Assembly (NCBI GenBank): GCA_022763425.1
Contig: JALEGD010000001.1
Coordinates: forward strand, 820,572-884,571
Direction: 5' to 3'
Origin: Pelagibacteraceae bacterium
GTDB taxonomy: Bacteria; Pseudomonadota; Alphaproteobacteria; Pelagibacterales; Pelagibacteraceae
DNA length: 64,000 bases
Part shown: in pieces, positions 49,985-57,359 of the stretch
Numbering within the stretch: the stretch's first letter is position 1
Layout of the letters: every line of letters starts with the position of its first letter
Notes under the pieces: generated by a model
Database searches by the model: none
What the model was told of the DNA's origin: nothing
What the model saw: the letters and a program-made list of their open reading frames with translations, nothing else
Made by a program: the position numbers and the translations under genes

Positions 49985-51358
49985 TTATTTTTTTTCTATT
50001 ACATAAACTGGAACATAATCATTAATAACTAACTTTTTCATACTTTTTTGCAAAAAGTAAGGGGGCGTGTCACCAATAGCTATTACAATTTCATTACGTT
50101 TAAGATTTTTTTTTATAAATGTATTTAAACTTTTGTTAAATTGTATTTGATTATTATAAACCTTACACATGAGATTGGAATTAAGAGCAGGATGACTACA
50201 ATCTTCTTTTTCAGATTTGTTTTTTATAAAATAATCTTGCGGTATGACGTGACCATTTAAAGTTAAAAAATAGTATAAAGTTTGATTTTGATTAAGATCA
50301 AATAAATCGTCAAATCTTTCTAAAATTTCATAATCACATATTCCAGGCTCATACCAGTTACATTTAGGTTCAAATTTTTTATTCAATAAATCATTAAAAA
50401 AATAAGATTTATCAAAATAGGTTTTGTATTTTGTTCGATTGTTAAAATCAGATTTAAAAGAGTGAATAAAATTAATTTTAAACCCTTCTTTTTTTAATTG
50501 ATGAATTAAGCAATCATTTTGATCAAAAATATCGTTAAGATTATCTTTTGCATCCAAAATAACAGATAGATTACCAGGCACTTTTCCGCAAAACATATAA
50601 AATTCTTGGCCCAAAGTAGAAAGATCTGGGTACCAATTTTTGTATTGTTTTTTAACCTTATATTTATCTAAATCGTTTAATAAAAAATTATTCAGTTTAT
50701 TTCTAATATTACTATCAACAAATAAAGGATAAGATTCCATCACAACAATATAAATCTTATTAAATTTTTTTAATTGAACCGAATTAATATCAAATTTCTC
50801 ATTTAAAAAATCAGAGCTAATTAAATCGTTCCTTATTGATGATTGATAGTTAACATTATGAATTAAATTAAGGGTAATGGATCCTATTTTTTTTATGTCA
50901 CTAACGTCGTTAAAATACCATTTAATCATTGGGCGATTTAAAATTAATAGAGTAACTAAAATGATACAAAAAATTAAAAGAGCTTTAATGCACCTGGTTA
51001 ATCGAACTGATAATTTTAACTTAGGATGATATCGGTAGAAGATACAGATTATAATTAGTAAAATAGCAAGTGTATAGCTTTCGGTAAATGTCGAGATGAA
51101 ATCAAAATTTAAATTGTTTAACCAAAAAGAAAAAAAAATTAATTCTGGAGTGATTTGCAAACTTGAAAAAAAAACAACTATAGCCTCATAAACAAAACCA
51201 AAAATCAAAAGCTTGCCAGATAAAGCAAAAATAAAACTTTCTAAACTAATAAAGGGTCTTTCAAATTGATAAAATGCAATAGGAAAAAATAATAAATTTA
51301 TTATTATGAAATTAATAAGATACTGTCTTAAATTAAATTTTTTTAACATATCGCTCAT
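49985..51358 (-). CDS. Membrane protein with divergent sulfatase-fold domain
   Basis: A 457 aa protein with about five N-terminal helices (to residue 145) and a periplasmic alkaline-phosphatase-superfamily domain. Core blocks are IYIVVMESYPLFVD, DLSTLGQEFYMFCG, FLTLNGHVIP and VIAIGDTPPYF. The usual GDH metal-ligand motif reads GDT here, so it may be catalytically altered. It converges on the MdoB-like gene with only 6 bp between the stops. Its ATG lies directly after the pilin terminator's U tract. Probably a phosphoethanolamine- or phosphoglycerol-transferase relative; exact family uncertain. Confidence 0.7.
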   Translation of the reverse strand: MSDMLKKFNLRQYLINFIIINLLFFPIAFYQFERPFISLESFIFALSGKLLIFGFVYEAIVVFFSSLQITPELIFFSFWLNNLNFDFISTFTESYTLAILLIIICIFYRYHPKLKLSVRLTRCIKALLIFCIILVTLLILNRPMIKWYFNDVSDIKKIGSITLNLIHNVNYQSSIRNDLISSDFLNEKFDINSVQLKKFNKIYIVVMESYPLFVDSNIRNKLNNFLLNDLDKYKVKKQYKNWYPDLSTLGQEFYMFCGKVPGNLSVILDAKDNLNDIFDQNDCLIHQLKKEGFKINFIHSFKSDFNNRTKYKTYFDKSYFFNDLLNKKFEPKCNWYEPGICDYEILERFDDLFDLNQNQTLYYFLTLNGHVIPQDYFIKNKSEKEDCSHPALNSNLMCKVYNNQIQFNKSLNTFIKKNLKRNEIVIAIGDTPPYFLQKSMKKLVINDYVPVYVIEKK

Positions 51359-51390
51359 AAAAAAAGCCCCTCGTTAAAGGGGCTTTTTTA
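51359..51390 (-). terminator. Rho-independent terminator of the pilin gene
   Basis: On the minus strand a GCCCC/GGGGC stem (51383-51379 with 51370-51366) with an 8-nt loop is extended by A/U pairs and followed by seven U residues (51365-51359), a textbook intrinsic terminator 20 bp after the pilin stop. Because the A tract flanks the other side, it could also work on the plus strand. The ATG of the next minus-strand gene follows the U tract immediately. Confidence 0.85.
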
Positions 51391-56060: not shown

Positions 56061-56594
56061 ATGTCTATCGAACAAAAAATCAATGGGGATAATGGTATTT
56101 TAGAACTAGGTCAGGAGATTGATTTAGATCAATCACCAGTAGTTAGAGAGAATATCAAGGAATTATTTGAAAAATGTAAATCTGTATCCGTTGACCTTGA
56201 AAAGGTCAGTTACATTGACTCTTCTGGAATAGCTTCATTAGTTGAAGGGATGCAAACTGGAAAAAAAACAAATAAACCTTTTGCCCTAATTAATGTGAGT
56301 AATGAAGTCATGAAAGTTATCAAATTAGCTCATCTTGATAAAATTTTTAAAATTGAAAGCCAAAGTGGTAAAGATGCGGGATCAGCTCCAGCACCTGAAC
56401 CTGAAGCGGCTCCTCAAGAAACAGCAAGTGATAATATCGATATGACAGGCAATGAACCAGCTGCAGCACCTGCTGAAGAAGCTCCAGCCGCAGTCACTGA
56501 AGAAACGCCCGCAGCAGATTCTACTAATGACAATATTTCTCCTCAAGTTAGTCGTGATGATGACGGGGATGACAAAATTAAATTCAAAAGATAG
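56061..56594 (+). CDS. STAS-domain protein with Ala/Pro/Glu-rich tail
   Basis: A 177 aa protein. Residues 1-105 are a SpoIIAA-like STAS domain with the phosphorylatable Ser region YIDSSGIASL, like anti-sigma factor antagonists and MlaB. From about residue 108 a low-complexity tail of Ala, Pro, Glu and Asp ends in a charged RDDDGDDKIKFKR. The tail is much richer in G+C than its surroundings. It could belong to a partner-switching signal system or to lipid transport; no kinase or MlaFED genes are in view. Confidence 0.8.
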   Translation: MSIEQKINGDNGILELGQEIDLDQSPVVRENIKELFEKCKSVSVDLEKVSYIDSSGIASLVEGMQTGKKTNKPFALINVSNEVMKVIKLAHLDKIFKIESQSGKDAGSAPAPEPEAAPQETASDNIDMTGNEPAAAPAEEAPAAVTEETPAADSTNDNISPQVSRDDDGDDKIKFKR

Positions 56595-56600
56595 TTTTAA

Positions 56601-57359
56601 GTGGTAGTTGAAACCTACCTTTTTTTATTTGGCCTCATCGTTGGCAGTTTTTTTAATGTTTGTATTTTAAGATTACCAAAAGATCAGGATATATTTCTAA
56701 AGTCGTCAGCTTGTCCAAATTGTAATAACAAGCTTAAATGGTATCATAATATACCGCTCGTTAGTTTTATTTTCTTATTGGGTAAATGTCATTTTTGTAA
56801 AAAGATAATAAATTTTCAATATCCATTAGTAGAGATTATAACCGCTTTTATTTTTGTATTTAGTTATTCAAAATTTGACTTAACTTTAAATGCGTTATTT
56901 TTTTCAATCTTTTTATCTTCACTGGTCATCATATTTTTTACAGATTTAAATGAATATTTAATTCTAGATATTTTTACCCTGCCATTCAGTGTTATGGGTT
57001 TTGTTTTATCTGCACTAATACTCAATCCATTTAGTGTTGTGATTGCAGATTCATTTGCAGGTTTGATTATAGGTTTTAGTGTATTTTATTTGATCCGATG
57101 GTTTTTTTATAAATATAAAAAAATTGAAGGGATGGGTCTTGGAGATGCAAAATTAATGATGATGATTGGTGCTTGGCTTGGTTTAAAATCGATTTTATTT
57201 GTAATGTTTTTTTCATCAGTTACAGCCTTAATCGTGGCAATCCCACTTACGATAATCAAAAAAGACAAGCGTTATCCCATTCCTTATGGCTGTTTTATTA
57301 CTTTGGCCGCTTTTTTATACATTTTGATTGGTGATACTTTCTACAAATTCCTATTATAA
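56601..57359 (+). CDS. pilD: Prepilin peptidase / N-methyltransferase
   Basis: Aspartic membrane protease (A24) that removes prepilin leaders and methylates the new N-terminus. The N-terminal domain has the two Cys pairs (ACPNCNNKLKWYHNIP and CHFCKK) of the full-length enzyme. Catalytic aspartates are in FFTDLNEYLI and GMGLGDAKLMMM (GxGD). Eight hydrophobic segments, 252 aa. The start is GTG. It is the only recognised processing enzyme here for the two pilins 4-6 kb away. Confidence 0.93.
   Translation: MVVETYLFLFGLIVGSFFNVCILRLPKDQDIFLKSSACPNCNNKLKWYHNIPLVSFIFLLGKCHFCKKIINFQYPLVEIITAFIFVFSYSKFDLTLNALFFSIFLSSLVIIFFTDLNEYLILDIFTLPFSVMGFVLSALILNPFSVVIADSFAGLIIGFSVFYLIRWFFYKYKKIEGMGLGDAKLMMMIGAWLGLKSILFVMFFSSVTALIVAIPLTIIKKDKRYPIPYGCFITLAAFLYILIGDTFYKFLL

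Follow-up and report, generated by a model that had tools for sequence, protein, structure and literature searches.

A probable two-sided intrinsic terminator flush with the start codon of a lineage-specific sulfatase-fold gene in a SAR11 genome of the HIMB114 genus

The window, meaning the whole 64,000-nucleotide stretch of a Pelagibacteraceae genome that was analysed, carries a type IV pilin-like gene followed on the same strand by a gene for a 457-aa membrane protein with a sulfatase-fold domain, on which a second sulfatase-fold gene converges from the plus strand (Table 1). The pilin is 80% identical to its orthologue in HIMB114 (ADAC02000001.1). The reading frame of the 457-aa gene is closed upstream by a TAA at 51376-51374, and as no start codon occurs from there to the ATG at 51358, this ATG is the first possible start. 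A preliminary description had called this gene 'divergent'; it is co-directional with the pilin, and the term holds only if taken to mean divergent in sequence. The two converging sulfatase-fold genes are separated by 6 nt, and the terminator scan found no terminator-like hairpin between them. As the plus-strand gene thus has no such hairpin of its own there, its transcript may run antisense through the 457-aa gene as far as the bidirectional terminator beside the pilin.

Table 1. Features around the pilin terminator, in window coordinates
Feature	Position	Strand	Basis or remark
Convergent sulfatase-fold gene, 514 aa	48434..49978	+	PF00884, E 3e-16; synteny
Membrane protein gene with sulfatase-fold domain, 457 aa	49985..51358	-	PF00884, E 9e-8; ATG 51358, in-frame ATG 51349
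U7 (T7) tract, expected 3' ends of pilin RNA	51359..51365	-	Sequence and distance rule of PMC12207403
Terminator stem-loop GCCCC TTTAACGA GGGGC	51366..51383	-	5' arm GCCCC 51383-51379, 3' arm GGGGC 51370-51366; T tract also on + strand, hence two-sided
GAGGGG within the 3' arm, claimed Shine-Dalgarno element	51367..51372	-	Judged mainly part of the terminator
T6 tract, plus-strand reading of the pilin terminator	51384..51389	+	Sequence
Type IV pilin-like gene, 216 aa	51410..52060	-	PF07963, E 1e-7; TIGR02532 above cut-off

The 457-aa protein matched no NCBIfam model. That the gene is an artefact of gene calling was rejected on the strength of its Pfam match and its eight full-length homologues, which align with it end to end. 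Of 396 other genomes of the family that were sampled, 8 contain these relatives; all 8 belong to a single other genus, and the identity is 33-39% in the C-terminal half. The gene is present in none of the seven genus mates, and a search for related loci across the genome contigs gave no relative.

The pilin terminator fits inside the 51-nt gap between the pilin and the 457-aa gene, with the pilin stop codon 26 nt upstream of the stem. On the minus strand, the succession of GCCCC, loop, GGGGC and U7, followed directly by the AUG (51358-51356), is as previously described, as is the distance of 8 nt from the end of GAGGGG to this codon. The stable G+C-rich hairpin with a U tract directly after it is what an intrinsic terminator should show in sequence, and T tracts flank the stem on both sides, so that it can be read as a terminator on both strands. 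In four relatives its neighbours are convergent, but in the window the 457-aa gene intervenes. Folding of the 92-nt region yields -23.9 kcal/mol, where shuffled sequences average -11.1 kcal/mol (z -4.8) and none of 200 shuffles did as well; one dominant hairpin appears in the folds made of this region and of the modelled read-through and shorter RNAs. The hairpin itself exceeds chance, and its arrangement flush with an ATG recurs at other loci. The terminator scan returned it as the sole match between 49000 and 54000, where 1.3 matches are expected by chance, so that the scan alone says little. Two other identities were considered and rejected: a repeat-borne element, since the exact stem pattern is found once in the genome, and a described regulatory RNA (riboswitch or attenuator), since the Rfam matches in the window consist of one tRNA.

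The history of the locus can be read from its relatives. The window's genome belongs to the genus of HIMB114, which has been placed in SAR11 subclade IIIa (PMC10030771). Gene order and orientation in HIMB114 match the window from 41.5 to 57.4 kb, with the 457-aa gene missing; the plus-strand sulfatase-fold gene and the pilin converge there on a two-sided terminator, at which the plus-strand gene directly ends. In three genomes of another genus (G117, G023 and G103), the orthologous pilin converges on a plus-strand gene at a distance of 33-53 nt, and the junction contains sequence able to form a hairpin. All four relatives lack the 457-aa gene at the pilin terminator. Most simply, the window's lineage alone would have gained or retained this gene, next to a pre-existing terminator of convergent genes; the preference for insertion over loss rests on these four genomes, as six of the seven genus mates either have no trace of the locus as a whole or are incomplete. 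Between 45975 and 51358, the window is a fast-changing stretch beside the pilin genes: its proteins are 53-74% identical to those of HIMB114 (L046 4993-8860), compared with 95-99% for the genes at 41.5-46 kb.

The preliminary description took the 3' arm for the ribosome-binding site of the 457-aa gene, hidden by the hairpin in read-through RNA, such that pilin transcription silences the next gene unless transcripts start within the stem or factors open it. This silencing model is not favoured, and we consider it very improbable. It draws on the position of GAGGGG at a workable distance from the AUG and on its pairing with the anti-Shine-Dalgarno core at -6.7 kcal/mol, an energy that ranks ATG 51358 among the top 8% of sampled starts; the principle has been proposed before (PMC2965389). 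RNA folding also agrees with the hiding part of the proposal. For the modelled read-through RNA, the probability of being unpaired is 0.27 in the GAGGGG region and 0.17 at the AUG, whereas the region reaches 0.51 and 0.80, and the AUG about 0.65, in modelled RNAs whose 5' ends lie 21 or 17 nt ahead of the ATG. Some damping of read-through translation is thus to be expected from the mostly paired region and AUG. Neither the identity of GAGGGG as a ribosome-binding site nor a coupling by which pilin expression would silence the next gene is supported: this genome seldom uses Shine-Dalgarno motifs, the same arm sequence is present in relatives with no gene behind it, and the other flush terminators of the window's genome have no such motif.

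The low use of the motif was measured in the window plus ten 20-kb stretches (L078-L087), together 264 kb or 22% of the genome, with gene starts taken as first-ATG calls from open frames rather than from annotation. The 16S tail is intact (ACCTCCT), yet core 4-mers occur at -16 to -5 before just 22 of 201 such starts, compared with 11 of 190 internal ATGs; the corresponding counts in HIMB114 are 17 of 178 and 6 of 158. Since first-ATG calling lowers the count in an Escherichia coli K-12 control from 24 of 39 annotated starts to 13 of 33, the figure of 22 of 201 probably understates true use in the window's genome to some extent. The sample has a weak positional peak at -14 to -8, which shows that some genes do use the motif; otherwise it is scarcely used. 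Leaders in the sample are A-rich (0.44) more than U-rich (0.34), so that a general U-leader mechanism is not indicated. On the pilin strand of the relatives, where no start codon lies behind the terminator, the 3' arm reads GAGGCC in HIMB114, GAGGG in G117 and GAGGGG in G023, and it lacks GAGG in G103; three of these four geneless arms thus contain GAGG. A comparison of orthologues had also been put forward as a check on whether the AUG stays next to the U tract. None of the eight 457-aa homologues has a hairpin and U tract directly before its start (80 nt upstream, inspected by eye), an outcome of the kind that the preliminary description had named as refuting its model; the evidence is weak, as these homologues are distant and located elsewhere. 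With no close orthologue found, there is also none that keeps the motif.

Two further readings concern where the RNA or the protein begins. A promoter could overlap the terminator, with TATAAA (51392-51387) as its -10 element and transcripts starting near 51380-51378, after most of the 5' arm, so as to carry a short open leader. About 7 nt separate the hexamer from the end of the 5' arm, and the modelled RNAs starting 17-21 nt before the ATG are indeed open, but a consensus scan gave no minus-strand site between 51869 and 51331, its total of 31 sites is matched by 30.5 in shuffled sequence, no -35-like hexamer is evident by eye, and AT hexamers such as TATAAA are common at the 28% G+C of the window; such a promoter is quite unlikely. 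Less improbable, though still not likely, is that translation truly starts at the second ATG (51349), with a spacer of 16 nt after the stem, which would make the abutment at 51358 incidental. Most homologues begin a few residues ahead of an aligned RQYL/KYYF segment, in slightly better agreement with Met4 than with Met1, but this N-terminal alignment is loose, homologue lengths vary (L052 and L055 start further upstream) and the sequence upstream of 51349 offers no better motif (-1.9 kcal/mol). A start at 51349 is in any case compatible with a terminator packed against a gene.

Close abutment of terminator and start codon is not confined to this locus. Six strong co-directional terminators in the 264-kb sample have stem-to-start distances of 6, 7, 7, 9, 20 and 48 nt; these are what remained of nine with co-directional genes on both sides after three with fewer than five G-C pairs were dropped (a plus-strand hairpin near 56600 and two in L087). 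At 56595-56630 on the plus strand of the window, a small hairpin (GGTAG/CTACC) followed by T7 is found 8 nt past the stop codon of 56061-56594, within the start of 56601-57359 as called from the longest ORF. As it is also found in HIMB114, the true start of 56601-57359 is probably further downstream.

A whole-genome search for three G/C followed by five T, one or two further bases and ATG gave 23 sites in the window's genome (G000), of which three consist of a hairpin followed by a real ORF; among matches inside the window, L078 and L083, detailed consideration was given to the hairpin cases. Besides the 457-aa gene, the three comprise a short-chain-dehydrogenase-like (SDR-like) gene that follows a homocysteine-synthase-like gene and an EamA-like transporter gene that follows a ribonucleotide-reductase-beta-like gene, all four names being readings of the sequences rather than results of a family search. 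In HIMB114, 1 of 19 pattern sites is a flush terminator, at the SDR-like locus. Across nine other genomes, 2 of 47 examined sites (106 in total), both in G046, combine a hairpin with an ORF of at least 100 aa. Pattern counts in G000 were 12 against 9, and 11 against 4, for a backwards control; counts are near this control in most genomes, so there is no massive genome-wide enrichment.

The SDR-like locus (L078 1605-1660, minus strand; orthologues L201-L207) shows how lasting the arrangement can be. The stem stands 7-8 nt from the ATG in all eight genomes of the genus, with an arm that reads ACGGCC or ACGACC and contains no Shine-Dalgarno motif, and the protein is 76-97% identical in the seven other genus genomes. 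A flush terminator is thus compatible with long-term keeping of the gene behind it. The constant spacing is not in itself evidence of selection, as the 48-nt gap shows one length change in eight genomes, and covariation at this terminator was not significant (1 of 9 pairs changed on both sides; 42 of 500 shuffles scored as high). In another genus, g12, the distance is 18-28 nt in all five genomes, of six, where it could be judged. Two of the 17 rows in this comparison (L209 and L214) were left out for want of a usable ATG at the start of the match, and where the script called no hairpin in L208 and L210, one can be seen by eye, although it lacks a good U tract. The AUG of the SDR-like gene is more open in modelled RNA (0.61), so the damping expected at the pilin terminator is not a shared rule.

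On balance, the element is probably an intrinsic terminator of the ordinary bidirectional kind, onto which a lineage-specific gene has been packed, rather than an evolved switch, with the 457-aa gene expressed by read-through or from a local promoter and independently of a Shine-Dalgarno motif. Relatives and other loci, judged on their sequences, suggest tight packing and not the purpose-built hiding of a ribosome-binding site. Ancestrally, the terminator most likely separated two convergent genes; in the window's lineage, the 457-aa gene would then have come to sit between the plus-strand gene and the terminator, its ATG 7 nt after the stem being at about the smallest distance that still leaves room for a U tract. 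The distance from hairpin base to RNA 3' end is reported as 7-9 nt in vitro, with medians of 4-6 nt in cells (PMC12207403). Pilin RNA is accordingly expected to end just before or at the AUG, and 7 nt is close to the smallest spacing that allows termination. About 90% termination is reported for E. coli at a range of stop-to-stem distances that covers 26 nt (PMC4824070), and most pilin transcripts would likewise end at the terminator, within the U tract. The 457-aa gene would be expressed from residual read-through or from a putative local promoter and would start at ATG 51358 or 51349 with no need of a Shine-Dalgarno motif, as apparently do most genes of this genome; in other systems, initiation is known to proceed without the motif with the help of ribosomal protein S1 or where the structure is open (PMC5397173). 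Read-through RNA is probably translated less well because of the hairpin, an incidental effect of the packing.

A bolder general proposal is that, in subclade IIIa, an intrinsic terminator can double as the 5' leader of the next gene, such that the RNA 3' end falls at the AUG and translation of read-through RNA begins from the U tract, with no Shine-Dalgarno motif and with the hairpin immediately upstream. We hold this to be unlikely. If true, a single element some 50 nt long would govern termination and also how strongly two neighbouring genes are expressed relative to each other, in a geometry kept for long periods (as at the SDR-like locus, in 8 of 8 congeners). The SDR-like locus makes it testable whether one short element serves as terminator and Shine-Dalgarno-free leader. 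The pilin locus illustrates how tightly a terminator and the next gene can be packed in a streamlined genome, to the point where a start codon lies where the upstream RNA should end, and the abutment bounds the spacer needed by termination and by initiation. It also serves as a warning that, where Shine-Dalgarno pairing is rarely used, GAGG in a terminator arm predicts a ribosome-binding site poorly.

Compared with known systems, the element resembles the intrinsic (Rho-independent) bidirectional terminators of convergent genes in its G+C-rich stem, the A tract before it and the U tract after it, and it shares with intrinsic terminators a suitable distance to the upstream stop codon; it differs from those of convergent genes in having, on one side, a start codon at 7 nt from the stem. 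A second role of terminators, in hiding a ribosome-binding site, was proposed in PMC2965389, which counted 18 E. coli candidates less than 15 nt from a start codon and noted that none had been demonstrated at that time. The pilin hairpin is like these in lying less than 15 nt from a start codon and in the modelled pairing of an upstream purine stretch. Unlike the terminators as set out there, it stands at the 3' end of the upstream gene as its terminator, without a known sensing element or alternative fold, in a genome that rarely uses the motif. Among titles and opening lines of abstracts, no description was found of terminators flush with start codons in SAR11, and such abutment is not part of what PMC2704228 says of SAR11 spacing. 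The locus nonetheless fits the compactness documented there, where the median intergenic length in Cand. P. ubique is 3 nt: the median gap between 187 co-directional ORF pairs of the 264-kb sample is 1 nt, and the terminator is squeezed into the short gap behind the pilin.
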